Assembly (NCBI RefSeq): GCF_012275375.1 | Contig: NZ_JAAZQJ010000002.1 | Location: 186,001 to 250,000, forward strand | Length of the DNA: 64,000 bases | Source of the DNA: Dyella sp. SG609 | Lineage (GTDB): Bacteria > Pseudomonadota > Gammaproteobacteria > Xanthomonadales > Rhodanobacteraceae | Direction: 5' to 3' | Part shown: in pieces, positions 32,276 through 59,318 of the stretch | Numbering within the stretch: the first letter of the stretch is position 1 | Layout: the number at the start of each line of letters is the position of its first letter | Made by a program: the position numbers and the translations under genes | The notes under the pieces: model-generated | What the model was told of the DNA's origin: nothing | Seen by the model: only the letters and a program-made list of their open reading frames with translations | Databases searched by the model: none

Positions 32276-32408
32276 CGTCATTCCGGCGCAGGCCGGAATC
32301 CAGTAGCGAGAGCCTCTCATGGAGCTTGTGCATCCACGATGCGGCTTTTGGACGTCCGTACGAAAATCGTACGTTGCCGCTACTGGATTCCCGCCTGCGC
32401 CGGAATGG
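32276..32408. repeat. REP-type inverted pair (ATTCCGGC family), copy 1
   Basis: CGTCATTCCGGCGCAGGCCG at the left is inverted at the right (ACTGGATTCCCGCCTGCGCC...), around a short variable loop with its own hairpin CGTACGA-AAA-TCGTACG at 32357-32373. The right arm runs into the 3' end of the ABC transporter gene. A second copy lies at 60301-60494. Confidence 0.85.
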
Positions 32409-34077
32409 CGGTCGAAGGCATCCAGCCGCCCAGCACCACGCACCGGTCCGCCAAAGCCCGCACGCTGGCACGGTGCGAAATCACCAGCAGCATTGTCTGC
32501 GGCAACCGCCGCTTCAGCATCGCCAGCACGTCGATCTCCGCCGCCGCATCCAGGGCCCCGGTCGACTCGTCCAGAATCGCCAGGAACGGCCTGCGCAGCA
32601 GCAGCTGCGCCAGCAGCAGGCGCTGCAGCTCGCCGCCCGACAGCTGGCTGGAACGATCGCGCAGTGCGAGATCCAGGCCCTGTTCGCTCGCGCGCAGGCG
32701 CCGGTCCAGCCCGACGTCCGCCAGCACCTCGTGCATGCGCTGCTCGCTGGCTTGCGGATCGGCCCAGCGCAGGCATTCGCGCACCGTTGCCTGCCACGGC
32801 CGCACGTGCTGGCTGACGAAGGCCGCGTGCCGCGCATGGCGCCGGTAAGCATCGAAATCGAGCGTGCGGCCGCCGATCTTGGCGGCGAAATCGGCCGGCT
32901 CGATCAAGCCGGCCAGCACGTCGGCGAGGCTGCTCTTGCCTGCGCCCGAATCGCCGGCGATCAAGGTCAGCTCGCCCGGCACCAGCACGATGTCGCGCAC
33001 TTCCGCGCCATGCAGCGCCACCGCCGAGCGCACGCGCTCGATGCGCAAGACGGCCCCTTCCGGAAACGCCCCAGGCGCACCCGCGACCACCGCATCGCCG
33101 GCCAGCCCCGCGTAGCGCCGCCACAGCTCGAAGGCCGGCACCGCCGAGCGCAGCTGGCGGAAACTCTGCCGCGTCGACACCAGATACGGCAGCAGCCGCC
33201 CCAGCAGCAGGCTTACCGCGATCAGCGAGGCGCGCGCATCGCCCTGCAGCCGGTGCGCCAGCATGAACATCGCGGCGATGCCGGCGGCAGCGAGCAGTTC
33301 CAGCCATAGCCTGCCGGAGGCCAGCATGTCCTGCTGATGCTCGTAGCCGCGCGCCAGTTCGCGCGAGACATCGCCATACGCCGCCTGCTCCACGCCCTCG
33401 CGGCCGAACGAACGGATATGGCGCAGGCGCCGCGGAAAATCCTCGCTCAGCCAGAACAGCCGGGTCAGGTCCGCCACGTACTTGCGGCTGACCCGCGCCT
33501 GCTCCTGCCCGCGCGAACGCGACACCAGCACGCCCAGCAAGGCCAGCAGCGGCACGGCCAGCATCAGCATCGGCGAGATCCAGAACGCGAACGCCAGGCT
33601 GATCGCGCAGGTCAGGCCGGCCACCCACAGCTGCAGCAGGCCGCTGAAGCCCTGCATCATGATCTCGATGTTGTAGGTGAGCACGTTGGCGATCTCGGCC
33701 GAGGTCGCATCGGCCAGCGCGGCCAGCGGCGCGTGGATCAGATGACCGTGCACGCGGCGGCGCAGATCCGCGCCGTAGTCGCCGGTCAGGCGCGCGGCCA
33801 GCAGGGACGACCACCAGCGCAACGCCGCCAAGGCAAATGCCGCGGCAACGAAAGCCCCCGCCTGCACATCCACGCCGCGATGCAGATAGAAGCCGCTTTC
33901 GGCCCCCGGCGCACCGAGGCTGACCAGCGGCACCAGCAGCACCGCGGCAAGACTGCCGGCGAGTGCGGACGCCACCGACAGCACCACGTAGAACGCCATC
34001 TGCCACGCGTGCCGGCGTTCCAGCGTGTCGGCGAATGCCGCGGGCAGCAGCCGGTCGGTGAAATTGCGCGCGCTCAT
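32380..34077 (-). CDS. ABC exporter, fused membrane and ATPase domains
   Basis: A 565-residue half-transporter. The membrane domain spans about 20-330 with six predicted helices; the ATPase has Walker A GDSGAGKSS (375-383), signature LSGGE, Walker B FLAILDES and the switch His in VISHR. The ATG at 34077 overlaps the stop of the HPr-kinase-like gene as ATGA, which sets the start. Similar exporters serve peptide or lipid-linked substrates; there is no C39 peptidase domain. The last residues, AIPAQAGIQ, are encoded by the REP repeat arm, which also supplies the stop. It is the second gene of the operon starting at promoter 35148-35176; the substrate is unknown. Confidence 0.88.
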   Translation of the reverse strand: MSARNFTDRLLPAAFADTLERRHAWQMAFYVVLSVASALAGSLAAVLLVPLVSLGAPGAESGFYLHRGVDVQAGAFVAAAFALAALRWWSSLLAARLTGDYGADLRRRVHGHLIHAPLAALADATSAEIANVLTYNIEIMMQGFSGLLQLWVAGLTCAISLAFAFWISPMLMLAVPLLALLGVLVSRSRGQEQARVSRKYVADLTRLFWLSEDFPRRLRHIRSFGREGVEQAAYGDVSRELARGYEHQQDMLASGRLWLELLAAAGIAAMFMLAHRLQGDARASLIAVSLLLGRLLPYLVSTRQSFRQLRSAVPAFELWRRYAGLAGDAVVAGAPGAFPEGAVLRIERVRSAVALHGAEVRDIVLVPGELTLIAGDSGAGKSSLADVLAGLIEPADFAAKIGGRTLDFDAYRRHARHAAFVSQHVRPWQATVRECLRWADPQASEQRMHEVLADVGLDRRLRASEQGLDLALRDRSSQLSGGELQRLLLAQLLLRRPFLAILDESTGALDAAAEIDVLAMLKRRLPQTMLLVISHRASVRALADRCVVLGGWMPSTAIPAQAGIQ

Positions 34078-35105
34078 CGTTCCAGCCACGCCGATAGGGC
34101 GGCCACCGCTTCCTCGGGATGCCGCGCGCGCGCCAGCCGATGCACGCCCAGCCGCACGCACTGGCGGCAGAACTCATCCCAGCCGGGCAGGCCTGCCGCA
34201 TAGGGCTGATCCGCGGCCAGCCGCGCGATCGCTTCGCTGGGCGGCAGCGGCGTCAACAAGCGTTCGGCCGGCCGCGCCGAGACCAGCACCACGCCTTTGA
34301 GTTGCAATGGCTCCGGCGCCAATCGCCCATGGCCGCCGCGCAGATCGACTTCATATTTCTCCACGCCGCTGCGGCGGCGGATCGTCGGCGAACGGCGAAT
34401 CCAGTCGCGCACGCCCGCGTCGTCGACGAAGCGAAACGCATCGTCCGTCACATGCAGATAATTGGCCACGCCCGTCGCCCGCAGATAGTCCGGATGCACG
34501 AACACCGCATCCTCGGCGAGGAAATCCAGGCCACCCAGCAGGCTGTGCAAGGCCAGCGTCGACTTGCCCGCCCCGCTCTCGCCCAGCAGCAGCACGCCCT
34601 GCCCATCGCGCCCGACGCAGGCGCCATGCAGCGGCACCAGCCCCTGCGCGCGCTGCGCCAGCACGAACACGGCGAATTCCAGCAGCTCGTAGCGCACGTG
34701 GTACGGATGGCGCGCCAGCATCGCCGGCGAAGCCACCACCAGCGCCTGCCGCCGCGCCGGCGCGATCGCGGCGTAATGCGCCGCATCCATCACGCCGCAC
34801 AGCAGCCCCGCACCGGAGCGCATATGCACCGGCGGCGGCGCGTCCAGGCTGGCGGCATCGGCCGGCTCGGCCAGCCGCAGCTCGATATGCAGCGCAGGCG
34901 CTGCCGCCGGAAAGCGATGCGCCGGCAAGCCGCCATACGCCGCCTCGATCACCTCCAGCCAGGCCTCGTCGTCGGCCTCGAACCGCACGTCCGCGCCGAG
35001 CACACATGCATTCACGGCAAAACGCCGCGCCGTCCGTTCGCCGAACGGATCGATCGCGGCGTCGTCGACCGGCGCGGGGCGCGCGGCAAGGCCCAGGTTG
35101 GTCAA
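34074..35105 (-). CDS. HPr-kinase-like P-loop protein
   Basis: A 343-residue protein with the HPr kinase/phosphorylase-like C-terminal fold. The P-loop GESGAGKST is at about 175-183 in LLLGESGAGKSTLALHSLLG, followed by FLAEDAVFVHP, a Walker B-like stretch. It lacks the full HPrK N-terminal domain. Such stand-alone kinases occur in peptide-maturation and polysaccharide clusters rather than sugar regulation. Start: a TTG at 35105 with GGAG eight bases upstream is chosen because the predicted ECF promoter (35148-35176) would lie inside the gene if the only upstream ATG (35237) were used. It overlaps the ABC exporter gene by ATGA. The target is unknown. Confidence 0.72.
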   Translation of the reverse strand: MTNLGLAARPAPVDDAAIDPFGERTARRFAVNACVLGADVRFEADDEAWLEVIEAAYGGLPAHRFPAAAPALHIELRLAEPADAASLDAPPPVHMRSGAGLLCGVMDAAHYAAIAPARRQALVVASPAMLARHPYHVRYELLEFAVFVLAQRAQGLVPLHGACVGRDGQGVLLLGESGAGKSTLALHSLLGGLDFLAEDAVFVHPDYLRATGVANYLHVTDDAFRFVDDAGVRDWIRRSPTIRRRSGVEKYEVDLRGGHGRLAPEPLQLKGVVLVSARPAERLLTPLPPSEAIARLAADQPYAAGLPGWDEFCRQCVRLGVHRLARARHPEEAVAALSAWLER

Positions 35106-35147
35106 GCGAAGGACTCCGTCGGCGGGGCTGTGGTCCGCGTCTGGCGT

Positions 35148-35176
35148 GAGTGCCGCCGCGGCGCCGGAAAGTTGCC
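35148..35176 (-). promoter_or_regulatory. Predicted ECF promoter P4 (HPrK-like/ABC operon)
   Basis: Minus strand: GGCAACT, 15 bases, GGCACTC followed by A. The -10 element ends 42 bases before the TTG start at 35105. It has the same elements and spacing as five other sites in this window. Confidence 0.65.
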
Positions 35177-35210: not shown

Positions 35211-35239
35211 CGCAACCGAACCCGCGCGGCGCGGCACTC
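35211..35239 (+). promoter_or_regulatory. Predicted ECF promoter P5 (radical-SAM/nucleotidyltransferase operon)
   Basis: Plus strand: CGCAACC, 15 bases, GGCACTC followed by A. It lies 66 bases before the ATG at 35306 and is divergent from P4 in the same gap. Elements and spacing are identical to the site before the ECF sigma gene. Confidence 0.72.
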
Positions 35240-35305
35240 ACGCCCAGCGACAACGGAACACCGCGCCCGCGCGGCACGCTCCCGGCGATCACAAGGCCCC
35301 ACTCC

Positions 35306-36796
35306 ATGCTCAGAATCCAGGTCAGCCACTCCTACTTCCTGCGCTACGACCGCAAGCAGTGGGAACGCGGCAAGCCCTACCCGCCCCTGGCCACCCTGCA
35401 GGTGGCTTCCCTGCTGTGGGACCTGGGCCACGAGGTGAGCCTGTTCGACGCCATGCTGGCCGAAGGCGTGGAGGACTACGCCGGCTCGCTCGCCGCCGCG
35501 GCGCCGGACGTGGTGGTCATCTACGAGGACAACTTCAATTACCTCACCAAGATGTGCCTGAACCGGATGCGCGAAGCGGCCTGCCAGATGATCGGCGAGG
35601 CGCGCGCGCACGGTGCGCGCGTGATCGTCGCCGGCTCCGATGCTTCGGACCACCCGGAAGCGTTTCTCGCCGCCGGCGCCGAGGCGGTGCTGGTGGGCGA
35701 AGGCATCGCCGCGCTGCTCGACCTGATCGGCCGGCTCAACGACGACCTGCGGATGGATATCGCGCCGTGGACCGCGGACCTCGCCGGCGTGGCCACGCTG
35801 TCGCAGGGCCAGCAGCGCCTGACCCGCATCGGCGCGCAGCCGCCGGATCCGCGCCTGGGCGGGCATCCGGCCTGGGACCTGGTGGACATCGAGCGCTATC
35901 GCACGCTGTGGCAGGAGCGGCACGGCTATTTCAGCCTGAACATGGCCGCTTCGCGCGGCTGCCCGTTCCGCTGCCACTGGTGCGCCAAGCCGATCTGGGG
36001 CAACCACTACAAGCAGCGCGGCCCGCGCGACGTCGCCGAGGAAATGATCTACCTCAAGCGCGCCTACGCGCCGGACCATATCTGGATGGCGGACGACATC
36101 TTCGGCTTCCACGTCGACTGGGTCACCCAGTTCGCCGAGCATCTGCGGGACGCGGACGGCTCGGTGCCGTTCACCATCCAGACCCGCGCGGACCTGTCCA
36201 GCGACCGCATGGTCGCGGCGCTGGCGCAGGCCGGCTGCGCCGAGGCGTGGATCGGCGCCGAAAGCGGCAGCCAGGCGGTGCTCGACCGCATGAACAAGGG
36301 CACCACGATCGCCGAGCTGCACAGTGCGCGCGACCGCTTCCGCCAGTACGGCATCCGCGTGGGCTTCTTCGTGCAGCTGGGCTATCTGGGCGAGCAATTG
36401 GAAGACTTGAAAGCGACGCGCGCGCTGATCGAACGCGCCGCGCCGGACGATATCGGCGTGAGCGTGTCGTACCCGCTGCCGGGCACCAAGTTCTACGAGC
36501 AGGTGAAGGCGCAGCTTGGGCGCAAGACGCATTGGCAGGACAGCGGCGACCTCGCCATGATGTTCCGCGGCGCCTACGACTCGGAGTTCTATCGGCGCGT
36601 GCGCGACCTGCTGCACGAACAGGTGGTGCTGCAGAAGGCGCAGCCGCGCAACCATCCCTCGCAGGACGCGCGGGCGCTGGCCGGACTCGACGCACGCTGG
36701 GACGCGCTGATGGCCGAGGAACGCCAGTACCGCCGCGCCGACGCCACGCCCGCGCACGACCTGGCCCTGCCCGCCGGCCGCACGGCCAGCGCCTGA
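35306..36796 (+). CDS. B12-binding-type radical SAM protein
   Basis: A 496-residue enzyme. The N-terminal part (about 1-150) has the cobalamin-binding-like Rossmann layout (LATLQVASLLWDLGHEVSLF, PDVVVIYEDN, VIVAGSDASDHPEAFLAAGA). The radical SAM core carries C219, C223 and C226 in SRGCPFRCHWCAKP for the 4Fe-4S cluster, then a TIM-barrel region with IWMADDIFGF and WIGAESGSQAVLDRM. The reaction is unknown; relatives perform methylations or rearrangements on peptides, lipids or sugars. The start at 35306 fits the promoter at 35211-35239. It is followed after one base by the nucleotidyltransferase gene. Confidence 0.88.
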   Translation: MLRIQVSHSYFLRYDRKQWERGKPYPPLATLQVASLLWDLGHEVSLFDAMLAEGVEDYAGSLAAAAPDVVVIYEDNFNYLTKMCLNRMREAACQMIGEARAHGARVIVAGSDASDHPEAFLAAGAEAVLVGEGIAALLDLIGRLNDDLRMDIAPWTADLAGVATLSQGQQRLTRIGAQPPDPRLGGHPAWDLVDIERYRTLWQERHGYFSLNMAASRGCPFRCHWCAKPIWGNHYKQRGPRDVAEEMIYLKRAYAPDHIWMADDIFGFHVDWVTQFAEHLRDADGSVPFTIQTRADLSSDRMVAALAQAGCAEAWIGAESGSQAVLDRMNKGTTIAELHSARDRFRQYGIRVGFFVQLGYLGEQLEDLKATRALIERAAPDDIGVSVSYPLPGTKFYEQVKAQLGRKTHWQDSGDLAMMFRGAYDSEFYRRVRDLLHEQVVLQKAQPRNHPSQDARALAGLDARWDALMAEERQYRRADATPAHDLALPAGRTASA

Positions 36797-36797
36797 A

Positions 36798-38054
36798 ATG
36801 CCCGTGCTCGCCTTCCCCGCCGGACGCCTCCGCACGCCCAGGCCCGCGCCGCTGCCTCCGCTGAAGCAGGTGCGCGCCGGCCTGCGCCGCGCCACCGAGG
36901 CCTTGGCCGAGGAACTGGCCCTGGTGCGCCCCGGCGGCGTGCTGCCGGCGTGGAGCGAACTGGAATGGCGGCTCGCCACCGCAGCTGCCGTCGCGCACGG
37001 CGTGGCGCCGCTGCTGCATCGCTTCTCGACATGGCAGCGGGTGGAGTGGCGCCGTTTTCTGGACCGCCAGCGCCAGCACGTGGCGCAGCGCCATGTACGC
37101 ATCGAAGCGCTGCTGCGGCGCATCGATGCTTCTTTCCGCGCCGCCGGCGTGCCTGTCCTCGCTCTCAAGGGGGCGGCCCTGCACGGTCTCGGGCTGTATG
37201 CGCCGGGTGACCGCCCGATGGCCGACATCGACCTGCTGGTGCGCGCCGGCGACGCGGACCGGGCGGCGGCACTGCTGTGCGGGCTGGGCTACACGGAAGC
37301 CTTCGCGCAGTGGAAGCACCGCGCGTTCAAGCCCGCCGCGGGCGGCGCGGTGGCGGGGCTGGGCGAGCATCGCGACACCGCGGTGAATATCGAGCTGCAT
37401 ACGCGTATCCACGAGCGGCTGCCGGCCTCGATCGTGGACATCACGCCGATGGTGTTTCCGCCGGGTCCGCGGCCGGGACTGAATCCTTATCCATCGAACG
37501 GCGCGCTGATGGCGCATCTGCTGCTGCATGCGGCCGGCAATATCTGCAGCCGCACCTTGCGCCTGCTGCACCTCAACGACATCTCGCTGCTCGCCACGCG
37601 GATGACGCTGGCGGACTGGGAAGTGCTGTGGTCCGCCGGCAACCCTTGGTGGGCCTTGCCACCGCTGCGGCTGGTGGCGCGCTATTACCGCAATGCGGTG
37701 CCGGCGGCGGTGCTGGCGCGTCTGCGGCGCGGCTGTCCGCCATGGCTGCGCGCCGCGGCGAAGCGGCAGACGCTGACGCGGGTGTCATGTTCGGACCTGT
37801 GGCTGCAGGCCTTGCCCGGGATCGAGTGGTCGCGCACGCCGGGCGAAGCGCTGCGCTATCTGCGGCATCGCTTCGTGCCGGACGAGGAGAGCCGGCAGGA
37901 GCGGCAGGATATGGCGCGGACGCAGTTGTGGCTGCAGGGACAGGCGTGGGTGACGCGTTCGCAGGCGCGGCGCTTGCTGCGGCGGCTGGCGGGGTCGGTG
38001 CCGCGGATGGATACGTTGTATGTGGTGCGCGCCGCGCTTGAGGCGCAGGAGTGA
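36798..38054 (+). CDS. Nucleotidyltransferase-family protein (NTP_transf_5 type)
   Basis: A 418-residue cytoplasmic protein with the nucleotidyltransferase signature near 121-149: PVLALKGAALHGLGLY followed by RPMADIDLLVR, in which the D-x-D pair (MADID) is the expected metal site. A helical C-terminal region contains HLNDISLLA. Proteins of this family occur in polysaccharide clusters and, together with HPr-kinase-like proteins and ABC exporters, in phosphorylated lasso-peptide clusters; both partners are adjacent here. No lasso cyclase or protease gene is present. The start is one base after the radical-SAM stop, so they are one operon. Confidence 0.8.
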   Translation: MPVLAFPAGRLRTPRPAPLPPLKQVRAGLRRATEALAEELALVRPGGVLPAWSELEWRLATAAAVAHGVAPLLHRFSTWQRVEWRRFLDRQRQHVAQRHVRIEALLRRIDASFRAAGVPVLALKGAALHGLGLYAPGDRPMADIDLLVRAGDADRAAALLCGLGYTEAFAQWKHRAFKPAAGGAVAGLGEHRDTAVNIELHTRIHERLPASIVDITPMVFPPGPRPGLNPYPSNGALMAHLLLHAAGNICSRTLRLLHLNDISLLATRMTLADWEVLWSAGNPWWALPPLRLVARYYRNAVPAAVLARLRRGCPPWLRAAAKRQTLTRVSCSDLWLQALPGIEWSRTPGEALRYLRHRFVPDEESRQERQDMARTQLWLQGQAWVTRSQARRLLRRLAGSVPRMDTLYVVRAALEAQE

Positions 38055-38261: not shown

Positions 38262-39365
38262 TTAGGTGGGCTTCAACAAGCTTCGATACAAAGCCTCGAA
38301 CCGCTCCGCCGTATAAACCGCATCCTCATCCACCGCCCGCCGCTGTGCCTCGTGCGCCAGCCGCAGGCGCAGTTCCTCATCCTCCAGCACCTGCCGCACC
38401 GCGCCGGCCAGCGCCGCATGATCCCCCACCGGCACCGCCAGCGCCGCCGCCGGCGACCACTCGGCCAGGTGGCCCACTGCCGTCCCCACCGTCGGCACGC
38501 CGGCCACCGCCGCCTCCAGCAACACCAGCGGCCCGGCCTCGTGCAGCGACGACATCACCAGCAGGTCGGCCGCTTCCATCAACGGCCGCAGTTCGCGCTG
38601 CGTCTTGAAGCCGAGAAAGCGCACCTGCGCGTCCAGATCGAGTGCGTGCCGGAGCCGCTGCATCTCGCCATCGAGCGTATCGACGCCGACGATGTCCATC
38701 TGGAATGCCACGCCTTGCGCGGCGAGCGCGGCCAAGGCACGCAGCGAGGTCGGCTGATCCTTCACCCGGTTGAGGCTCGCCACATGCAGCAGCCGCGCCG
38801 GCCCCGAGGCTCGCCGCCGCGGCGGCAACGGCGGCCACGCCGCCAAATCCACACCCAGCGGCAAACGCTGCGCCTCGATACCCAAAGCCTGCAGCGATGC
38901 CAGGATGGGCGCACTCGCCGCCGTCACCGCCGCCGCGGCGCGCAAGGTCACCGCCTCGCGCGCGCGGCTCACCCATCGCTGCCGCCCGCCATAACGGATC
39001 GCGGGCAAGGCGATCAATTCGCCACCGGCGATATGCACCAGGCCAGGGCGGCGCATCAGCTTCGCCGCCGCGATCGCCACCAGGCTGCAGGTGCCGGAGA
39101 AAATCGCCTGCACCGCATCGAAGGCCCCGCGCTGGTGCTCGGCCAGGATCGCCGCGATCGCCCGCAAACGCTGCCTGCCATCGCCGATGTTGTGGACCGT
39201 CGCACCACGCAGCATCCATGTCGCAGGCTTAGGCTCCTGCCGCAGCACGAACACATGCACCTCATGCCGCCGCGCCAGCTGCCCGATCAAGGCCAGAAAC
39301 GCCGGAATCACCCGCTCCTCGCCGCCGCGGTCCACGCCGCCCGGCAAGACCAGCGCGAGCTTCAT
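38262..39365 (-). CDS. Glycosyltransferase, GT4 family (second of a pair)
   Basis: A 367-residue GT-B glycosyltransferase. The N-terminal domain opens MKLALVLPGGVDRGGEERVI with the glycine-rich acceptor loop. The C-terminal half has LLHVASLNRVKDQPTSLRAL (start of the donor domain), VRFLGFKTQRELRPLMEAAD and SSLHEAGPLVLLEAAVAGVP, the E-x7-E-type donor-sugar motif of GT4. The ATG overlaps the preceding glycosyltransferase stop as ATGA. It is the last gene of the minus-strand run from 44765 and probably adds a sugar to a lipid-linked saccharide or modified acceptor; donor and acceptor are unknown. Confidence 0.88.
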   Translation of the reverse strand: MKLALVLPGGVDRGGEERVIPAFLALIGQLARRHEVHVFVLRQEPKPATWMLRGATVHNIGDGRQRLRAIAAILAEHQRGAFDAVQAIFSGTCSLVAIAAAKLMRRPGLVHIAGGELIALPAIRYGGRQRWVSRAREAVTLRAAAAVTAASAPILASLQALGIEAQRLPLGVDLAAWPPLPPRRRASGPARLLHVASLNRVKDQPTSLRALAALAAQGVAFQMDIVGVDTLDGEMQRLRHALDLDAQVRFLGFKTQRELRPLMEAADLLVMSSLHEAGPLVLLEAAVAGVPTVGTAVGHLAEWSPAAALAVPVGDHAALAGAVRQVLEDEELRLRLAHEAQRRAVDEDAVYTAERFEALYRSLLKPT

Positions 39366-40489
39366 GCCGCCTCCCACGCCGCCGCGCGGGGGCGCCCGGC
39401 CAGCAAGGCGGCATAAGCCTCGGCCCAGCGCCGCCCCACCGCCGCGAACGACAGCTCGGCGTCGAAATGCGCGCGCACCTCGGCGCGCGTGGGGCCGGCC
39501 GCGGCCATCGCCACCAGCGCATCCGCCAGGCGTCCGGTATCGCCGCAAGGCCACAGGCGGCCGAGGCGGCCATCGCCGGTCAAGGCGCGGAACGAAGGAA
39601 TATCGGTCAGCACCGGCACCGCGCCGCAGGCCATCGCCTCCAGCGCCGCGTAGCCGCAGCTTTCCGCGCGCGAGCCGGCGACGAAGATATCCGCCGCGCG
39701 CTGCAGCAGCTCGACCTTCTCGTGCGGCACCCGCCCCAGCAGATGCACGCGCCCGGCCAGCCAGGGATCGCGCGCGATGCGCGCCTGCACGGCCTCCCGC
39801 ATCGGCGCGTTGCCGTAGGCGCACCACAGTTGCAGATCCGGCAGGCGCCGCGCGGCCAGCGCCACGCCGTCGAGTACCGCCAGGGGATCCTTGCCCGCCG
39901 CCAGATGCCCCACCCACAGCACGCAGGGATAGCCATGCAGGCCCGTGGCGTAGCGTGCCTGGGCGCGGTCGCCCGGCGTGAAGCGGCAACTGGATTCGGG
40001 GATCGCGAACACCCGTGTTCCGGGCCGGAAAAGCTTTGCCTCGACAAACGGCGCCGCCAGCGCCGGCGCGGTAAACGCCACGCCGGCGGCCGCCGCATAC
40101 CAGCGCCGCCACGGCGCGCGCCGCCACCAGCCGGGCGGACGGTTGGCATGGTCCTGCAGCAGGATCGGCAGCCACGGCAGCCGCTTCGACAAGGCATGCG
40201 CCTGCGGCGCGAAATCCAGGCCGTGCACGTGCGCCAGTCCGGCGCCGGCACCCACCAGCGCAGCGGCAAGACGCCGCGGACCGTCCTTGCCGTCCAGCGG
40301 CAGAAAGCGGTACTCGACGCCTGCGCGCACGAATGCCGCCTCGCGTGCCGCATTCTGGATCACCGACACGCGCACGCCCGCCGAAGCCACCGCATCGGCG
40401 ACATCCGCCAGCGTGTGCCAATGCACCGGCAGGTCGCCGGGTTCGATCTGCGGCGGCGCCGGCACCAGGTTGAGCTGGGCGATATGCAC
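39362..40489 (-). CDS. Glycosyltransferase, GT4 family (first of a pair)
   Basis: A 375-residue GT-B enzyme with donor-domain motifs YPCVLWVGHLAAGKDPLAVL, VHLLGRVPHEKVELLQRAAD and ESCGYAALEAMACGAVPVLT, the last being the GT4 E-x7-E region. The N-terminal domain includes AHVHGLDFAPQAHALSKRLP. It lies seven bases after the radical-SAM gene and overlaps the next glycosyltransferase by ATGA. Together they form the end of the methyltransferase/radical-SAM operon. Sugar specificity cannot be read. Confidence 0.87.
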   Translation of the reverse strand: MHIAQLNLVPAPPQIEPGDLPVHWHTLADVADAVASAGVRVSVIQNAAREAAFVRAGVEYRFLPLDGKDGPRRLAAALVGAGAGLAHVHGLDFAPQAHALSKRLPWLPILLQDHANRPPGWWRRAPWRRWYAAAAGVAFTAPALAAPFVEAKLFRPGTRVFAIPESSCRFTPGDRAQARYATGLHGYPCVLWVGHLAAGKDPLAVLDGVALAARRLPDLQLWCAYGNAPMREAVQARIARDPWLAGRVHLLGRVPHEKVELLQRAADIFVAGSRAESCGYAALEAMACGAVPVLTDIPSFRALTGDGRLGRLWPCGDTGRLADALVAMAAAGPTRAEVRAHFDAELSFAAVGRRWAEAYAALLAGRPRAAAWEAA

Positions 40490-40496
40490 GCGGGGC

Positions 40497-41996
40497 CTAC
40501 AGGCTCGACACCTGCGGCAGGCGCAGCTTCACCCAGCGGTTGGCCAGGTTCAGTTCCCACGGCTGGTCGTAGCGGCGATAGCGGTAGCGCCACGAGGCCA
40601 TGGTGCGCAGGCCGTGTTTCGCCCAGCGCGGCGTGCGCATGTCCTGCACGGTGGGATAGCGGCAGCGCAGCACGGTAACGAAATCGTGGATGCGCTTGCG
40701 CATCTTGTCGGTCAGCCAGGGCGCATCGGCGTGGCAGGCATAGTCCACCCACTGCGGCTGCGCCCATTCTTCCGGCGTCGAGGGGAACACCACCGGCTCG
40801 CCGTTGAGATCCAGCAGCGGCATCGAGGCGCGCTTGCCGCGGTCGCTCTCGTGCTTGGCGCTTTCGGGCAGCGGCGTATAGACGTAGACGATGATTTCCG
40901 AGGCGGGGTTGATCCGCTTCAGCTCGCGGATGAACTCGAAGGTGTGCTCGGTTTCTTCTTCGGTATCCACCGGCGGCGCCACCATGAAGGAGAGCTCCGG
41001 AATCACCCCGTTGCGCCGGCACAGCTCGGCCACTTCCAGCGTCTGGTCCGGCCGCGTGCCCTTGCGGATTTCCTTGAGCATCTTGCCGCTGGGCGATTCG
41101 GCGCCGATATAGGCCATCTTCAGGCGGCTCTTGCGCACCAGCTTCCAGGTGCTCTCGGAAAGATTCAGCAGCGCATCGGCGCGCGCATAGCACCACCACG
41201 GCATTTCCAGCTTCGCCATCACTTCCAGCAGCGGGATCATCTCCACTTCGCGGTCGAAGAAGTTGTGGTCGAAGAACTGCACGGAATCGGCGCCAAGCTC
41301 GTACTTCAGATACTTCAGATCGCGCTCCAGCCGCTGCACCGCCGGCAGCGCGGTGGCGCCGCCGAACATGGCGTTGACGCCGCAGAAGGTGCAGCGGAAG
41401 CGGCAGCCCAGCGCGGCCTGGTGGCCGGCGGTGCGGCGGCCGAGGAAGGTGCGGGCCAGGTACTGCCGCGGATCGCCGAGCTTGTCGTACGGCAACTGCA
41501 CCGAGGGATCGCCGGGCACGAAGTGGCGGTTCGGGTTGTGCACGTGCTCGTCGCCGCGCTTCCACGACAAGCCGGCCACCTTGGCCACCTCGCCCTGCCC
41601 GCCCAGCGCCGCGACCAGCTCGGCCATGGTCTGCTCGCCCTGCGCACGGATCGCGTAATCCACGTAAGGCGCGGCCAGCGCGGTATCGGTGTACAGCGTG
41701 GGGAAATAGCCGCCCCATACGATCGGCACCTGCGGGTGGCGCTCGCGGATCGCCTTGGAAAGCTCGATCGACGGCGCCAGCTGCGGCCCGCCCATCACGC
41801 TCAGGCCCACCGCGTCCACGCCGCCCCGGTCCAGCGCCTGCAAGGTGGTACGGATGAAATCGCGGTCGACATTGCCGTCGACGATGCGGCTGCTGCCGCG
41901 CCGGTCCAGCGCGGCGGCCAGGTTCAGCAGGGCCAGCGGAAAGCGTGCGCTGGAGCGCGCGGTAATGGTCGGGTTGATCAGCAGGGTATGGGGCAT
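40497..41996 (-). CDS. B12-binding-type radical SAM protein (second)
   Basis: A 499-residue enzyme. The cobalamin-binding-like N-terminus includes DAVGLSVMGGPQLAPSIELS and VPIVWGGYFPTLY (about 60-103). The radical SAM core has C198, C202 and C205 in LGCRFRCTFCGVNAMFGG, then FFDHNFFD and MAYIGAESPSGKMLKEIRKG. The start at 41996 (MPHTLLINPTITARSS) matches the usual beginning of this family; the open frame upstream reads the methyltransferase gene out of frame. It lies nine bases after that gene. The substrate is unknown. Confidence 0.88.
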   Translation of the reverse strand: MPHTLLINPTITARSSARFPLALLNLAAALDRRGSSRIVDGNVDRDFIRTTLQALDRGGVDAVGLSVMGGPQLAPSIELSKAIRERHPQVPIVWGGYFPTLYTDTALAAPYVDYAIRAQGEQTMAELVAALGGQGEVAKVAGLSWKRGDEHVHNPNRHFVPGDPSVQLPYDKLGDPRQYLARTFLGRRTAGHQAALGCRFRCTFCGVNAMFGGATALPAVQRLERDLKYLKYELGADSVQFFDHNFFDREVEMIPLLEVMAKLEMPWWCYARADALLNLSESTWKLVRKSRLKMAYIGAESPSGKMLKEIRKGTRPDQTLEVAELCRRNGVIPELSFMVAPPVDTEEETEHTFEFIRELKRINPASEIIVYVYTPLPESAKHESDRGKRASMPLLDLNGEPVVFPSTPEEWAQPQWVDYACHADAPWLTDKMRKRIHDFVTVLRCRYPTVQDMRTPRWAKHGLRTMASWRYRYRRYDQPWELNLANRWVKLRLPQVSSL

Positions 41997-42004
41997 GGCA
42001 GTCG

Positions 42005-43896: not shown

Positions 43897-43898
43897 GC

Positions 43899-44942: not shown

Positions 44943-44963
44943 CTGGCGTTGTGGCTATTGGGT

Positions 44964-44992
44964 GAGTGCCGCTCAGCCCCGCATCGGTTGCG
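44964..44992 (-). promoter_or_regulatory. Predicted ECF promoter P6 (methyltransferase/radical-SAM/glycosyltransferase operon)
   Basis: Minus strand: CGCAACC, 15 bases, GGCACTC followed by A. The -35 element lies in the last codons of the wzz gene and the -10 just past its stop. The downstream gene starts about 200 bases away, beyond the REP element, so the transcript would carry a long leader. Confidence 0.65.
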
Positions 44993-52142: not shown

Positions 52143-52808
52143 CTAGAACCTCACATCCAGGCTGGAGCGGTCCGGCAAGGCGCGCGCAGGCGAGCCGACG
52201 TAGACCTTGCCCGGTTCGGTATCGCGCACCACCAGGGCGCCGGAGCCGATCACATTGTCGGCCGCCACTTTCACGCCGTCGTTGAAGGTGGCGTTGACGC
52301 CGACGAAGCTGCTTTCGCCGATGTCGCAGAAGCCCGAGATCACCGCGTGCGAGGCGACGAACACATGGTCGCGCACCACCGTGCGGTGCCCGACGTGATT
52401 GCCGCTCCACAGGATGCAGTTGTTGCCCACCGTGACGAAGGGCTGGACCACGTTGTGCTCGAAGATGAAGCTGTTCTCGCCGATCTCCACATTGCGCCAG
52501 ACGAAGGCGCGGCTGCTCACGTAGCTGGCGAAGCGGTAGCCCCTGGCCTTGGCGTCGAGATAGAAACGCGTGCGCAGGCGGTTGAGGCCCGTGGCGGGAA
52601 TCGCCACGAACAACTCGGCGTCGCCGGGTGCGTAGCGCGAGGCAAGCTCCTCGTAAGCCAGCACCGGGCGGCCTTCCAGCTCGGTGTCCTTCAGGTGCGC
52701 GCGTTCTACGCTGAAGGCGACCACGTCGTAGTCGCTGTCGTGCTCGAAGTATTCGAGCGCGATCCGCGCCATCTCGCCCGCGCCGATCAGCACCAGCGGC
52801 CGGCTCAT
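52143..52808 (-). CDS. Sugar O/N-acyltransferase, NeuD/PglD type with hexapeptide repeats
   Basis: A 221-residue enzyme. The N-terminal Rossmann-like domain begins MSRPLVLIGAGEMARIALEY (PglD_N type); a left-handed beta-helix follows from about 110 with hexapeptide units (VEIGENSFIFEHNVVQPFVT, CDIGESSFVGVNATFNDGVK, NVIGSGALVVRDT). The likely catalytic His is in WSGNHVGHRTVV. In this operon it probably acetylates the 3-amino group made by the aminotransferase (QdtC/FdtC-equivalent step). It overlaps the ketoisomerase gene by four bases. Confidence 0.85.
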   Translation of the reverse strand: MSRPLVLIGAGEMARIALEYFEHDSDYDVVAFSVERAHLKDTELEGRPVLAYEELASRYAPGDAELFVAIPATGLNRLRTRFYLDAKARGYRFASYVSSRAFVWRNVEIGENSFIFEHNVVQPFVTVGNNCILWSGNHVGHRTVVRDHVFVASHAVISGFCDIGESSFVGVNATFNDGVKVAADNVIGSGALVVRDTEPGKVYVGSPARALPDRSSLDVRF

Positions 52809-53230
52809 GCCACCGCGCCCCCGAGGCGGCGGAAGCCGTTGGCTTCGCGCAGGAATTCGTCGTAGTCGGTGATGTAGTCGGCCGGATCGTAGAACTGGTC
52901 GGCCAGCACCATCAGCACGCAGTCGTCGCTGAAGCCGTACAGCTCGCGCCACACCATGTCGCCCAGCAGCAGGCCCTGGCTCGGGTCGTTCAGCACCACC
53001 TCGACCGGGCCGGTACCGTCGTCCAGCAGGATGGTCACCGAGCCGCGCACGGCCACCGCCAGCTGCTTGAGGTGGCGGTGCGCATGGCGGCCGCGGTGCA
53101 CGTTCGGCTCGGTGGCGTACACGTAGTACACCCGCCGGATCTCGAACGGCACGTTGCGCTCCTGTTCCAAGGCCACGAGCATGCCGCCGTGGTCGCCGTG
53201 CTGCTGAAACTGGATGCGTTCGATGTCCAT
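52805..53230 (-). CDS. dTDP-4-dehydro-6-deoxyglucose 3,4-ketoisomerase (FdtA/QdtA, WxcM-like)
   Basis: A 141-residue cupin enzyme that moves the keto group from C4 to C3 of dTDP-4-keto-6-deoxyglucose. It begins MDIERIQFQQHGDHGGMLVA, with conserved RVYYVYATEPNVHRGRHAHR and LKQLAVAVRGSVTILLDDG; the two His of RGRHAHR are the catalytic pair in this family. It is the first gene of the nine-gene polysaccharide operon, 45 bases after promoter P3. RmlA/RmlB, needed to supply its substrate, are not in the window. Confidence 0.9.
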   Translation of the reverse strand: MDIERIQFQQHGDHGGMLVALEQERNVPFEIRRVYYVYATEPNVHRGRHAHRHLKQLAVAVRGSVTILLDDGTGPVEVVLNDPSQGLLLGDMVWRELYGFSDDCVLMVLADQFYDPADYITDYDEFLREANGFRRLGGAVA

Positions 53231-53274
53231 CGTGGCTGGCTCTTCGCTCGTGTGAGAACGACCTGTTCGAGGCT

Positions 53275-53303
53275 GAGTGCCGGTGGCGCAGCGAAAGGTT
53301 GCA
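53275..53303 (-). promoter_or_regulatory. Predicted ECF promoter P3 (polysaccharide operon)
   Basis: Minus strand: TGCAACC, TTT-rich start of the 15-base spacer, then GGCACTC followed by A. It lies 44 bases before the ketoisomerase ATG at 53230, almost the same distance as P1 to the sigma gene. Confidence 0.72.
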
Positions 53304-53527: not shown

Positions 53528-53588
53528 ACGCCTCGACACGACGCGCGGGGATCGCCGGATGGGTTCGAGGTACCAGGACAAGGCCGAC

Positions 53589-54170
53589 ATGCCGATGCCG
53601 GGCAGCACGCCCGCCGTCGGCGGCCGCACGGAAACGCAGGAACCGCTGCGCCGCCCGCGCGGCATGGCGATCCTGCACTGGGGCACGGTGCTGCTGCTGA
53701 TCGCCGCCGCCGCCTTCGCGCTGATCCGCGACGAAGTCGCCGGCCGCGTCGCGCGCCAATGGCTGCTGGAAGGCCATCGCCATACCGGCCTGCTGGTGCT
53801 GCTGCTGGCGGTGCTGCGCATCGGCCTGCGCCTGCGTCACGGGCGCCTGCCGCAGGCCGTCCATTCGCGCGTCATCCGCATCGCCGCGTGGCTCACCCAT
53901 GCCGCGCTGTATCTGATCCTGCTCGCGCTGCCGCTGGTCGGCTGGGCGCTGAGCAATGCCGAGGGCAAGCCGGTGACTCTGTTCGGCGCCGCCCTGCCCG
54001 CGCTGGTGGCGGACGACGAAGACCTCGCCGACGCCCTGCTCGTATGGCACCAGGACATCGCCTGGGCCTTGCTCGCCCTGGTGCTGCTGCATATCGGCGC
54101 CGCGCTCTATCACCACTTCGTGCGGCGCGACGACGTGCTGCGCGCGATGTGGCCGTGGCGTTCGCGCTGA
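53589..54170 (+). CDS. Cytochrome b561-type membrane protein
   Basis: A 193-residue inner-membrane di-heme b cytochrome that should pass electrons between the quinone pool and periplasmic carriers. Four helices are visible with candidate heme His in MAILHWGTVLLLIAAA, LEGHRHTGLLVLLLAVL, AAWLTHAALYLILLALPL and WHQDIAWALLALVLLHIG. The start at 53589 has AAGG six bases upstream; another ATG 10 codons earlier is possible. It is the first gene of an operon with an outer-membrane cytochrome-barrel protein and a cytochrome c. Confidence 0.85.
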   Translation: MPMPGSTPAVGGRTETQEPLRRPRGMAILHWGTVLLLIAAAAFALIRDEVAGRVARQWLLEGHRHTGLLVLLLAVLRIGLRLRHGRLPQAVHSRVIRIAAWLTHAALYLILLALPLVGWALSNAEGKPVTLFGAALPALVADDEDLADALLVWHQDIAWALLALVLLHIGAALYHHFVRRDDVLRAMWPWRSR

Positions 54171-55581: not shown

Positions 55582-55983
55582 GTGAAGACCTCAAGCCTTA
55601 AGCGAAACCTTCGAAACCTCGCCCTCGCCGCGCTGGCCTGCGCCTGGATGGCGGCCTCGCCGGCCTTCGCCGGCGATGCGTCGGCCGGCGCCGACGTGTT
55701 CAAGAGCGAATGCGCCGAGTGCCACAGCATCAAGGAGGGCCGCAACAAGAAAGGCCCCAGCCTGTTCGGCGTGCTGGGCCGCAAGGCGGCGACGGTGCCG
55801 GACTATGAGTACTCCGATGCGCTGCGTGCGCAGTCGTCATGGGTGTGGACACCGGAACAACTGCACAGTTATCTCGCTCAACCGGCCAAGCGCGCCAATC
55901 CCGGTACGAAAATGAAATACGATGGGCTGAACGATGCAAAACAGCTCGACGATCTCATTTCCTACCTGGGCACGCTCCACTGA
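55582..55983 (+). CDS. Class I cytochrome c, periplasmic (GTG start)
   Basis: A 133-residue monoheme cytochrome. The GTG at 55582 begins the signal peptide VKTSSLKRNLRNLALAALAC, cleaved near ASPAFA (30). The heme site is C44-AE-C47-H48 in VFKSECAECHSI, and the axial Met is in NPGTKMKYDG. Size and spacing fit a small soluble class I cytochrome c of the type that shuttles electrons in the periplasm. The ATG at 55578 is out of frame. It lies 13 bases after the barrel-cytochrome gene. Confidence 0.88.
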   Translation: MKTSSLKRNLRNLALAALACAWMAASPAFAGDASAGADVFKSECAECHSIKEGRNKKGPSLFGVLGRKAATVPDYEYSDALRAQSSWVWTPEQLHSYLAQPAKRANPGTKMKYDGLNDAKQLDDLISYLGTLH

Positions 55984-56027
55984 CGACACGTTCCGCCGCT
56001 GTATGCACTGCCTTGCCGCTACGCCGG

Positions 56028-56722: not shown

Positions 56723-56751
56723 CGCAACCTTTTCCTATCCGGTCGGCACTC
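56723..56751 (+). promoter_or_regulatory. Predicted autoregulatory ECF promoter P1 (sigma/anti-sigma/protease operon)
   Basis: Plus strand: CGCAACC followed by TTTT, 15-base spacer, GGCACTC followed by A. It lies 43 bases before the sigma-factor ATG at 56795. It is the best example of the motif found before all six operons between 32.4 and 59.3 kb. Confidence 0.72.
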
Positions 56752-56794
56752 ATGGGGACAGCCACGCCGCCCTCCGACCGGTGACCTGATACCC

Positions 56795-57379
56795 ATGAAC
56801 GAAGCCGATATCGAAGCCGATGCCACCGACCGCGCGCTGTTGCAGCGCATGGCGGCGGGCGACCGCGTGGCCCTGGCCACGCTGTACCGCGGCTACCACG
56901 GCCGCCTGACCCGCTTTCTGACGCGCCTGACCCGGCGGCCGGACGTGATCGAGGAAGTCATCAACGACTGCTTCTGGATCGCCTGGCAGAAGGCCGGCAC
57001 CTTCCAGGGCGATTCGCGGGTATCCACCTGGATCATGGGCATCGCCTACCGCTGCGGCCTGAAGGCCCTGCGCCAGCATGGCGACGAGCCGATCGAGGAC
57101 GACGCCCTGTACGGCGACCGCGCCCCCAGCCACGACCCCAGCGAAGACCACGAACTGCGCGACTGGCTGGGCAAGGCGCTGGAGCGCCTCACCGTCGACC
57201 AGCGCGTGGTGCTGGAGCTGGTCTACGGCGTGGGCCATTCGCTCAACGACGTGGCCGTGATCATGCAGTGCCCGGTGGGCACGGTGAAGGCGCGGCTTTT
57301 TCACGCGCGGGTGCGCCTGCGCAATGTGTTGCCGGATCTTGCCGGCGAATCCTCAGCGCACGTTGGAGGTGCGCCATGA
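56795..57379 (+). CDS. ECF sigma factor, likely regulator of the flanking operons
   Basis: A 194-residue RNA polymerase sigma factor. Region 2 spans about 25-95 (LYRGYHGRLTRFLTRLTRRP, VIEEVINDCFWIAWQKAGTF, RVSTWIMGIAYRCGLKAL); region 4 spans about 130-180 (ERLTVDQRVVLELVYGVGHS, CPVGTVKARLFHARVRLRNV). The start at 56795 (MNEADIEADATDRAL) is preferred; the open frame upstream reads intergenic sequence containing the promoter. It overlaps the zinc-finger anti-sigma gene by ATGA. It is distinct from the FecI-type sigma factor at 28746. Confidence 0.92.
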   Translation: MNEADIEADATDRALLQRMAAGDRVALATLYRGYHGRLTRFLTRLTRRPDVIEEVINDCFWIAWQKAGTFQGDSRVSTWIMGIAYRCGLKALRQHGDEPIEDDALYGDRAPSHDPSEDHELRDWLGKALERLTVDQRVVLELVYGVGHSLNDVAVIMQCPVGTVKARLFHARVRLRNVLPDLAGESSAHVGGAP

Positions 57380-58023
57380 CGTTTTCGATCAACGCCAGCC
57401 GGGATTGCGCCCGCGCCTGGGAAGCCATGCCCTGGGTGCTGCAGGGCAATGCCTCGCCGGAGCAGGCCGAATGGCTGGACGGCCATCTCGCGCAGTGCGA
57501 AGCCTGCCGCGCCGAATATGCGCAGCAGATCCGCCTGCGCGACGCGCTGGCGCTGCCGGCCGATGTCGCGGTGGACGCCAACGCCGGCCTGAAGCATCTG
57601 CTCGACCGCCTGGACGCGCACGACGCCGAAGCCGCCGCGCCCGCCAGGGCACGCGCGCGCAGCAGCGGCTGGCTGCTGCGCGGCCTGGCCGCCGCGGTGC
57701 TGCTGCAGGCGCTGGGCATCGGCATCCTCGGCCTGAAGCTGTATCGCGAACAGGGCGCGGCCGACTACCGCACCTACAGCAGCCAGGACGGCGCCGCCGC
57801 GCCGGCCGGGGCGATCCGCGTGATCCCGGATGCCAGCATGAAGGTGGTGGACTGGAATGCCGCGGTGCATGCGCTGCACCTGCAGGTGGTGGGCGGCCCC
57901 AACACGGTGGGCGCCTATACCGTGGTGGCCGCCGACACCGCTACCACCCAGGCCGAAGTGGTGCGCCAGCTGCGCGCCACGCGCGGCATCCGCATGGCCG
58001 AGCCGGTAGCCTCGGTCCCGTGA
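57376..58023 (+). CDS. Zinc-finger transmembrane anti-sigma factor
   Basis: A 215-residue protein with a cytoplasmic zf-HC2 motif in LDGHLAQCEACRAEYAQQI (H-x3-C-x2-C, about 36-46). One membrane helix at about 97-114 (SGWLLRGLAAAVLLQALGIG) and a periplasmic domain of about 95 residues follow. This is the ZAS-type inhibitor expected to hold the adjacent sigma factor until an envelope signal releases it. The start at 57376 overlaps the sigma gene, and its stop overlaps the GTG start of the protease gene. Confidence 0.87.
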   Translation: MTFSINASRDCARAWEAMPWVLQGNASPEQAEWLDGHLAQCEACRAEYAQQIRLRDALALPADVAVDANAGLKHLLDRLDAHDAEAAAPARARARSSGWLLRGLAAAVLLQALGIGILGLKLYREQGAADYRTYSSQDGAAAPAGAIRVIPDASMKVVDWNAAVHALHLQVVGGPNTVGAYTVVAADTATTQAEVVRQLRATRGIRMAEPVASVP

Positions 58024-59318
58024 AAGCGACGCTGCGCGCCTGCCTCGCCTTCGCCATGGCGCTTGCGCTGGGCGCCTGCGCGTCGGCGCCGGCCGGGCGC
58101 GGCAAGGCGGCGGCAATGCCTGCGGCCGCGGCGTCGATGAACAGCCAGCGCGACATCGTGCTGGCCGTGGCCAACCCGCTCGATCCGCCGGGCACGCATG
58201 CCGGCTCCAGCCTGCTCGGCTATGCGCCGCCGGGCCATTACGGCGCCGGGCAGCGCGCGGTCTCGCAGCTGGACGAACTGAAGCAGCGCTACGGCCTGCG
58301 CGAAGTGGTCGGCTGGCCGATCAAGGCGCTGGGCCTGTTCTGCATCGTGGTGGAACCGCCCGCGGGCGCCGACCGCGAGGCCCTGCTGCAGAACCTGGCC
58401 AAGGACGAGCGCGTGAAGCTCGCCCAGCCGCTGCAGGACTACGAAGTCTATGCGGATACGCAGCAGCAGGCCCCGCACAAGTACAACGATCCCTACGCCG
58501 ACCTGCAGCGCGGCTTCGTCGAGACCGACGCCGCCACCGCGCACGAGACCAGCCAGGGCGGCGGCGTGCACGTGGCCATCGTCGATACCGGCGCGGACGT
58601 CACGCATCCCGACCTGCAAGGCCGCATCGCCGACACCCACAACGCGGTGGACGGCGACGCCGCCGCCTTCGACCGCGATGCGCACGGCACCGAAGTGGCC
58701 GGCATCATCGCGGCCATGGGCGACAACCACCAGGGCATTGTCGGCATCGCGCCCAAGGCGGTGCTGAGCGTCTACAAGGCCTGCTGGTATCCGGACCGCA
58801 ACGCCGGCGCGCGCTGCAATTCGTTCACCCTGGCCAAGGCGCTGGCGGCGGTGCTGGACACCGATGCGCGCGTGGTCAATCTCAGCCTGGGCGGCCCGGC
58901 CGATCCGCTGCTGGGCAAGCTGCTGGACGAACTGCTGCGGCAGAAGCGCATCGTGGTGGCGGCGCGTCCGCCGGACGGCGACGCCAAGGGTTTTCCCGAC
59001 AACTCGCCCGGTGTGATCGTGGTGCGTTCCGCCGCCGCCACGCCGGCGCCGCCGGACGTAGTAAGCGCGCCGGGCAGCGACATCCTCACCACCCAGCCGC
59101 ATGGCGGCTACGACTTCACCTCGGGTTCCTCGATGGCGGCCGCGCACGTCACCGGCATCGTCGCGCTGCTGCTGTCGATCCAGCCGGATCTCGATGCCGC
59201 ATCGATCCGCAAGCTGCTGCTGATGGATGGCAAGACGGCCAACGGCCAGAGCCAGGTAAACGCGGCACTGGCGGTGCGGGCCCTGCAGAGTTCGCTGCAC
59301 CACGCCGGGTCGCCTTGA
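58020..59318 (+). CDS. Subtilisin-like serine protease lipoprotein (S8), GTG start
   Basis: A 432-residue exported protein with lipobox LALGAC (Cys20), so probably membrane-anchored. The triad is D189 (AIVDTGADVTHPDL), H222 (DAHGTEVAGI) and S371 (TSGSSMAAAHVTG), in normal order and spacing. The usual oxyanion-hole Asn (as in AAGN) is not seen: the strand reads IVVAARPPDGDAKG (311-324). An N-terminal part of about 130 residues may be a prodomain. The GTG overlaps the anti-sigma stop as GTGA. Being co-transcribed with sigma and anti-sigma factors, it may take part in regulated proteolysis of the anti-sigma factor; this is inference. Confidence 0.86.
   Translation: MKATLRACLAFAMALALGACASAPAGRGKAAAMPAAAASMNSQRDIVLAVANPLDPPGTHAGSSLLGYAPPGHYGAGQRAVSQLDELKQRYGLREVVGWPIKALGLFCIVVEPPAGADREALLQNLAKDERVKLAQPLQDYEVYADTQQQAPHKYNDPYADLQRGFVETDAATAHETSQGGGVHVAIVDTGADVTHPDLQGRIADTHNAVDGDAAAFDRDAHGTEVAGIIAAMGDNHQGIVGIAPKAVLSVYKACWYPDRNAGARCNSFTLAKALAAVLDTDARVVNLSLGGPADPLLGKLLDELLRQKRIVVAARPPDGDAKGFPDNSPGVIVVRSAAATPAPPDVVSAPGSDILTTQPHGGYDFTSGSSMAAAHVTGIVALLLSIQPDLDAASIRKLLLMDGKTANGQSQVNAALAVRALQSSLHHAGSP

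Follow-up and report, generated by a model that had tools for sequence, protein, structure and literature searches.

A block of six operons lies between positions 32380 and 59318 of a 64,000-nucleotide stretch of Dyella sp. SG609 DNA (contig NZ_JAAZQJ010000002.1, positions 186,001 to 250,000; hereafter the window). It encodes an extracytoplasmic function (ECF) sigma factor with an adjacent zf-HC2 anti-sigma factor and S8 (subtilase) protein, cytochromes with a barrel-like haem protein, a polysaccharide gene set, B12-binding radical S-adenosylmethionine (SAM) enzymes in two further operons, and an HPrK-like protein with an ATP-binding cassette (ABC) exporter. Here we describe the promoter-like motif shared by these operons, the candidate regulon of the sigma factor and a possible signalling relation between its two partner proteins. 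The sigma factor comprises regions 2 and 4 only within about 190 residues, as ECF (group IV) sigma-70 factors do. Its operon and the six predicted promoters are as follows.

56723..56752, plus strand: promoter of the sigma/anti-sigma/S8 operon, CGCAACCTTT-N12-GGCACTCA, beginning 72 nt 5′ of the sigma start codon
56795..57379, plus strand: ECF sigma factor, 194 aa; Pfam Sigma70_r2 at 30-96 and r4_2 at 123-175
57376..58023, plus strand: zf-HC2 anti-sigma factor (putative), 215 aa; PF13490, 29.2 bits (cut-off 22.2)
58020..59318, plus strand: S8 (subtilase) protein with signal peptide and pro-region; Pfam PF00082, 113 bits
53499..53528, plus strand: promoter of the cytochrome operon, CGCAACCTTTTTGGCTCGATCCAGCACCTA; top score of the window by the matrix described below
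53274..53303, minus strand: promoter of the polysaccharide operon, TGCAACCTTTCGCTGCGCCACCGGCACTCA
44963..44992, minus strand: promoter of the methyltransferase/amidohydrolase/radical-SAM/GT4 operon; weaker class, no CTTT
35147..35176, minus strand: promoter of the HPrK-like/ABC operon; site found before 26 of 30 HPrK orthologues
35211..35240, plus strand: promoter of the radical-SAM/nucleotidyltransferase operon; weak class, no CTTT

Intergenic gaps of the window also hold palindromes resembling repetitive extragenic palindromic (REP) elements (CCCTCTCCCC...GGGGAGAGGG) at 38095, 44906, 53335 and 53454, some of which adjoin regulon promoters; the copy at 53454 stops just ahead of the cytochrome promoter.

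An earlier note on this DNA had read the motif as CGCAACC-N15-GGCACTC and placed one copy before the first gene of each operon. All six sites are found at its coordinates; a 15-base spacer separates the elements in 6/6, and a first gene lies downstream in 6/6. Relative to that pattern, 35211 (plus strand), 44964 (minus) and 56723 (plus) have no mismatch, 53275 (minus) has one, 35148 (minus) two and 53499 (plus) three, the last being one more than the one or two substitutions that the note allowed. At up to three mismatches the window contains 16 matches against 17.0 expected, that is, no excess; because loose counts equal chance, the claim for the window is carried by the good matches, and loose counting of this motif was dropped in favour of a better consensus derived from orthologues. 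Across the 5,127,844 bases of the own genome, all three exact matches to this motif, and 4/5 matches with at most one mismatch, fall inside the block; at up to two mismatches the reversed-pattern control is equally frequent (41+34 against 25+34), leaving no excess.

The pattern GCAACC(TTT)-N-GGYACYYA was found 57-71 nt 5′ of the start codon in 23 sigma orthologues; with the own genome excluded, 22 of them supplied the sites for a scoring matrix. Among 30 orthologues with loci (L031-L060, own included), seven were held out from training (L039, L041, L046, L051, L052, L055 and L060), and 7/7 of these carry a site 59-72 nt 5′ of the start, with scores of 9.8 to 45.4; a score of at least 8 within 300 bp upstream of the sigma gene is reached in 30/30. 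In the window, matches scoring at least 7 are exactly the six sites of the earlier note, with 0.3 expected per 64 kb (from 40 Markov sequences). The scores are 32.2 at 53499 (plus), 25.4 at 53275 (minus), 25.1 at 56723 (plus), 18.1 at 35148 (minus), 10.0 at 44964 (minus) and 7.5 at 35211 (plus). The cytochrome site, formerly singled out as the weak one, is thus the best in the window, and the weak ones are 35211 and 44964, both of which lack the CTTT extension.

The sites are conserved before orthologous genes. In named loci picked by the sigma protein alone (the best 80 of 169; 1.5 Mb in total), 171 sites score at least 14, a level that no site of a 0.75-Mb Markov control attains, and 215 score at least 8, the threshold used below. 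A site lies within 260 nt upstream of the sigma gene in 78/80 of these loci, before the gene for the FdtA-like protein in 62/70 and before that for cytochrome b561 in 51/54; others precede the first methyltransferase (4/11) and three further genes (one each), and 17 precede no tested gene, of which 14 occupy the position of the cytochrome promoter with other genes downstream. Among the 21 Xanthomonas loci the counts are 20/21 for sigma, 18/20 for FdtA and 21/21 for b561. The sigma sites of Rhodanobacteraceae overlap the training set in part; the FdtA, b561 and Xanthomonas sites are independent of it.

A broader set of 140 loci, in which some genomes are present twice and some loci were picked for a pattern match, separates first genes from operon-internal ones. 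The best site within 300 bp reaches the threshold before sigma in 98/100, b561 in 63/65, FdtA in 80/90, the radical SAM gene in 7/16 and the first methyltransferase in 6/27. At the same distance and threshold none was found before the anti-sigma (0/100), S8 (0/97), c550 (0/66), TorF (0/98), propeller-protein (0/81), FemAB (0/81), FdtB (0/88), Wzx (0/79), GT2 (0/79), Wzy (0/39), Wzz (0/32) or amidohydrolase (0/21) genes, or before the remaining genes of the amidohydrolase operon (0/15, 0/10, 0/6 and 0/5); the exceptions are NeuD (1/81) and the haem-barrel gene (2/67). The earlier note had argued that the sigma factor autoregulates and controls the neighbouring operons, and had named conservation upstream of orthologues as a check; that conservation, with almost no operon-internal sites, supports both parts of the claim.

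The same observations bear on whether the motif could have arisen by chance, or as a repeat element, not a promoter, disseminated together with the block. Such an origin would suit a GC-rich genome in which three-mismatch counts equal chance, and REP-like palindromes adjoin two of the sites; but the conserved letters fall mainly in the two elements with a variable spacer between them, the sites hold their position before the same genes across a wide range of sigma identity, and hardly any precede operon-internal genes. We regard chance or repeat spread as extremely improbable.

The motif also follows the sigma gene between genomes. An orthologue of at least 69% identity is present in 54/147 genomes of the family (own included), after which identity drops to 53%; named relatives include a 97% identical copy in D. 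marensis and orthologues in Luteibacter, Rhodanobacter, Frateuria, Pinirhizobacter and Xanthomonas (among the best 80 of 169). With at most one mismatch, the 54 orthologue-bearing genomes yield 197 pattern matches against 14 for the reversed pattern, and 52/54 genomes are matched, whereas a second set (54 of the other 93 family genomes) yields 23 against 7, in 15 genomes. Within this second set the motif occurs in 13/20 genomes with a sigma homologue of E 1e-43 or better (43-53% identity) and in 2/34 (G008 and G037) with weaker ECF matches only (34-46%) or none. Of twenty sigma homologues of 43-53% identity in other genera of the family, 19 are accompanied by an S8 gene next to that for the anti-sigma factor, the contig of the twentieth ending there; an upstream site is present in 15/20, four more show the same elements with one additional spacer base, and one shows none. 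A real motif could instead be read by another ECF sigma factor or by a DNA-binding activator, and the first sigma search gave 15 candidate stretches in the own genome, so that relatives may exist. Against such a reader stand the tracking of the sigma gene by the motif and its near-fixed distance upstream of that gene, also for the 43-53% homologues in other genera, and we judge it very unlikely.

When up to two mismatches are allowed, GCAACCTTT-N12-GGYACYYA occurs six times in the own genome; five of these matches fall inside the block, and the remaining one is at C6:127254. This one is a seventh strong site (matrix score 33.2), situated before a methyltransferase gene and a flavin-reductase-like gene (L104:7300-8884); because it is unlinked, the regulon is not purely contiguous, as the earlier note had supposed it to be. 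Site 35211 has three mismatches to this consensus, a level at which matches (15+8) are no more frequent than those of the reversed control (20+15). A further near-match, C7:68452, was discarded with a matrix score of -19.3. The flavin-reductase-like gene is present in 35/53 sigma-bearing relatives, and the methyltransferase gene adjoins it in 30/30 loci. Secreted redoxin genes (AhpC/TSA) lie directly behind unlinked sites in three relatives (L215, L216 and L218), and matches L221, L228, L230, L250 and L253 have no consistent gene behind them. HPrK orthologues occur in 53/53 sigma-bearing relatives, with a site in 26/30 whose loci were selected without regard to the motif; counts for the ABC gene come only from stretches picked for a pattern match, and those for HPrK and the methyltransferase/flavin-reductase pair were recounted on unselected loci.

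Several observations weigh against a regulon of this extent. At two to three mismatches the motif is no commoner in the own genome than its reversed control. Sites 35211 (7.5) and 44964 (10.0) score weakly and may need help. No site lies at the tested distance in 8/70 FdtA, 3/54 b561 and 2/80 sigma loci, and the gene for MtrA, part of the conduit in some relatives (see below), is without a clear upstream site in 7/14 testable loci (best score 6.1). The methyltransferase/flavin-reductase operon carries a site in just 14/30 unselected relatives, a figure that replaces 13/16 from selected stretches; of the loci below threshold, about six show weaker forms and about ten no recognisable site, and this target is therefore frequent, not general. 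Taken with the rest, comparison of genomes shows the candidate sites, their positions before first genes, their conservation and their tracking of the sigma gene, and strongly supports autoregulated control by this putative regulator. We propose, as very probable, that GCAACC(TTT)-N12-GGYACYYA is recognised by the ECF sigma factor at 56795 and that this factor drives, besides the operon encoding it, at least six more: the other five of the block and an unlinked one. Its anti-sigma-controlled release would raise a polysaccharide, a tailoring/export set and an electron conduit together. The combination of envelope glycan, radical-SAM and electron-transfer operons suggested by the earlier note is likewise supported by site conservation.

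The electron-transfer genes lie immediately upstream of the sigma operon.

53559..54170 (start approximate), plus strand: cytochrome b561, in open reading frame 53421-54170; Pfam PF01292, 89 bits
54228..55568, plus strand: barrel-like haem protein, 446 aa; one N-terminal CXXCH (Cyc2-like layout), C-terminal Phe invariant
55582..55983 (start approximate), plus strand: cytochrome c (c550-like), in open reading frame 55336-55983; Pfam Cytochrom_C, 34.1 bits
56028..56696 (start approximate), plus strand: TorF-like putative porin, in open reading frame 55839-56696; TIGR02001, 39 bits (cut-off 47.15)

Frame 53495-54184 was rejected as the b561 gene, the Pfam match lying in 53421-54170. The c550-like protein reaches 81.3 bits with NCBIfam NF043008, below its cut-off of 240, and the TorF-like gene is present in 79/80 named loci. 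In the haem-barrel protein C47, C50 and H51 are invariant in 39 aligned rows, forming a single CXXCH after the signal peptide; it has no Pfam or NCBIfam match and no significant relative among solved structures (best E 0.11). The protein is Cyc2-like in layout alone, with no curated Cyc2 model to match. Together, b561, c550 and the haem-barrel protein are a likely, putative outer-membrane electron conduit.

The electron-transfer genes are exchangeable. Across the 80 named loci, in fetched stretches of up to 20.6 kb (some of those with neither type being short), the haem-barrel protein is encoded in 56, relatives of MtrA/MtrB in 15, neither in 9 and both in 0; the window's own locus is without MtrA/MtrB. 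In Rhodanobacter-type loci a decahaem MtrA, MtrB and a dihaem cytochrome occupy the conduit position. One of them (L173) encodes an MtrA with 10 CXXCH motifs (TIGR03508, MtrA/DmsE, 257.6 bits; cut-off 192.2) and an MtrB that matches Pfam MtrB_PioB PF11854 (246.8 bits; cut-off 23) and, below cut-off, TIGR03509 (171.2 bits; cut-off 240.05). A site lies 148-151 nt 5′ of MtrA in 7/7 testable Rhodanobacter-type loci, L167 being cut. MtrAB behind the promoter was rejected as a general rule, at 7/14: the pair is reversed in three Dyella loci (L144, L182 and L184) and stands behind the sigma operon in four metagenome-assembled or draft genomes (L185, L186, L207 and L213), in each case without a clear site. 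On a quick tree of 74/80 loci, which did not include the window and left out six loci without all three usable proteins, at least three changes are needed to account for MtrAB behind the promoter.

These genes might serve periplasmic redox balance, under peroxide or thiol stress, and not extracellular electron transfer, a reading that would accommodate the secreted redoxin and the flavin-reductase-like protein among the genes behind sites; in some relatives, however, MtrA and MtrB, a known transmembrane conduit, take the same place behind the promoter. A redox-balance role is a credible alternative, although the less probable one.

The remaining operons of the block comprise the following genes.

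52805..53230, minus strand: FdtA-like protein (WxcM-like family); Pfam PF05523, 153 bits
44973..52807, minus strand: rest of the polysaccharide operon, with NeuD-type acetyltransferase, propeller-type glycoside-hydrolase-like protein, FemAB/GNAT protein, DegT/FdtB-like aminotransferase, Wzx, GT2, Wzy-like and Wzz-like proteins
38262..44759, minus strand: methyltransferase, amidohydrolase, methyltransferase, B12-binding radical SAM protein and two GT4 glycosyltransferases
34074-35105, minus strand, TTG start: HprK-related kinase-like protein; Pfam Hpr_kinase_C, 27.4 bits (cut-off 33.3)
from 32380, within 32380..35105, minus strand: ABC exporter; ABC_tran and ABC_membrane
35306..38054, plus strand: B12-binding radical SAM protein and NTP_transf_5 nucleotidyltransferase

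The FdtA/FdtB/NeuD-like genes presumably point to a Fuc3NAc-type sugar. The Wzy-like membrane protein has no family match, and matches of the HPrK-like protein to TIGR04352/04355 are weak. The two low-scoring sites of the block belong to predicted variant classes. Site 44964 stands some 200 nt ahead of its own first gene, in overlap with the 3′ end of the Wzz-like gene; the variant TTCAACCAAAG...GGCACTCA precedes orthologues of that first methyltransferase, and among the 22 listed of 27 upstream rows CAACC is present in 21, as TTCAACC in 18. For 35211, CAACC-N15-xGCACT(C/T)A occurs at -61 to -121 in 16/16 radical-SAM orthologues tested. Elsewhere in the window are an open frame of 5,586 codons (8122-24882, minus strand), possibly encoding a giant surface protein, and a gene for an autotransporter-like protein (61323-63989, minus strand), judged by eye from repeats followed by a barrel-like C terminus.

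How the sigma factor might be released is suggested by its two partners. The anti-sigma protein, with an N-terminal zinc-finger domain and a hydrophobic stretch discerned by eye, is a putative inhibitor of the neighbouring sigma factor. The S8 protein, the signal peptide of which appears lipobox-like by eye in the own copy, keeps its Asp/His/Ser triad in 47/47 sequences, and the oxyanion Asn, at a column placed by alignment to 1dbi, is absent in 47/47 (Pro in 43, Ala in 3 and Gly in 1; Pro in the own copy). Right after the S8 gene lies a gene for a carbonic-anhydrase-like protein with a Tat-like signal, seen by eye (59379-60281, plus strand), which has no site of at least 7 upstream.

When diverse members are included, the anti-sigma C-terminal domain aligns with the S8 pro-region over 58 columns (hhalign E 8.8e-5, probability 59.8), at a score of 30.6 compared with a maximum of 17.2 in 100 column shuffles and 12.4 for the reversed profile. 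A shallow profile comparison of the two gave E 0.096, another scored 17.4 where 60 shuffles ranged up to 20.1, and a search with four anti-sigma and four S8 proteins, at E up to 10, gave no match to Pfam Inhibitor_I9. As judged by profile comparison, the predicted periplasmic domain of the anti-sigma factor and the pro-region of the adjacent S8 protein are related sequences.

If the S8 protein were an ordinary site-1 protease degrading the anti-sigma factor, and the resemblance of the two domains a matter of chance, this would fit the intact triad in 47/47, the non-significance of the shallow comparisons and stepwise anti-sigma proteolysis as a known activation route, described for RsiV (PMC4183432); it fits less well with the lack of the oxyanion Asn at the aligned column in 47/47 and with a diverse-member match (E 8.8e-5) above all 100 shuffles. 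This is a substantial possibility, a little short of an even one. The kinship of the two domains, together with a triad that has no oxyanion Asn, suggests a prodomain-docking switch. We put forward, as a tentative and rather doubtful scheme, that the anti-sigma periplasmic domain docks on the S8 catalytic domain, that the S8 protein, slow or inactive as an enzyme, serves as the sensor and binds or trims the anti-sigma factor once its own pro-region leaves, and that the freed sigma factor builds a polysaccharide coat and an exchangeable electron conduit together.

In the regulon that we propose, the zf-HC2 anti-sigma factor would hold the sigma factor until an envelope event, which may be sensed through its periplasmic domain and the S8 protein. 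Release would then raise the polysaccharide set (FdtA/FdtB/NeuD-like, Wzx, Wzy-like and Wzz), the tailoring/export set (methyltransferases, B12 radical SAM enzymes, the HPrK-like protein and the ABC exporter) and the envelope electron conduit (b561, c550 and the haem-barrel protein, with MtrA and MtrB in some relatives). This defines a testable regulon in soil bacteria, conserved in Xanthomonas, in which a single signal may couple the surface polysaccharide with what is likely an outer-membrane electron conduit. That two unrelated conduits replace each other behind one promoter argues for a response that requires electrons to cross the envelope and is not tied to one particular protein. The domain kinship, in turn, provides a specific hypothesis of signalling for the sigma/anti-sigma/S8 gene set, which is found again in other genera of the family.

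Autoregulated ECF regulons are a known class; the gene make-up of this one and its anti-sigma/S8 relation are apparently new, no description of either having appeared among the papers listed by searches of an open-access library (most subscription journals lie outside it). Autoregulated ECF sigma/anti-sigma operons, such as those of Sinorhizobium meliloti, have an adjacent anti-sigma gene, their own promoter and a shared -35/-10 motif. The Dyella system is like them in all three respects and unlike them in that its third gene encodes an S8 protein with a pro-region resembling the anti-sigma C-terminal domain, and in that its regulon joins polysaccharide and electron-conduit genes. AlgU of Pseudomonas has a promoter motif and an anti-sigma system that differ from the Dyella ones. 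Like the Dyella factor as proposed here, AlgU is of the ECF type and promotes the synthesis of a polysaccharide, in its case exopolysaccharide; the available part of that account (PMC9141998) names no electron conduit, whereas the Dyella regulon would include a likely one. PMC10654088 connects Acidithiobacillus Cyc2 to a cluster in which homologues from Rhodanobacteraceae and several further groups predominate. The Dyella haem-barrel protein resembles Cyc2 in having a single CXXCH near its N terminus, with a putative barrel-like region after it, and, unlike Cyc2 fusions, its gene stands together with those for b561, c550 and the TorF-like protein behind a predicted ECF-type promoter. As for MtrAB/PioAB systems, relatives of MtrA/MtrB occur in 15 of the 80 loci, and it is the Rhodanobacter-type arrangement alone that places them behind the predicted promoter.

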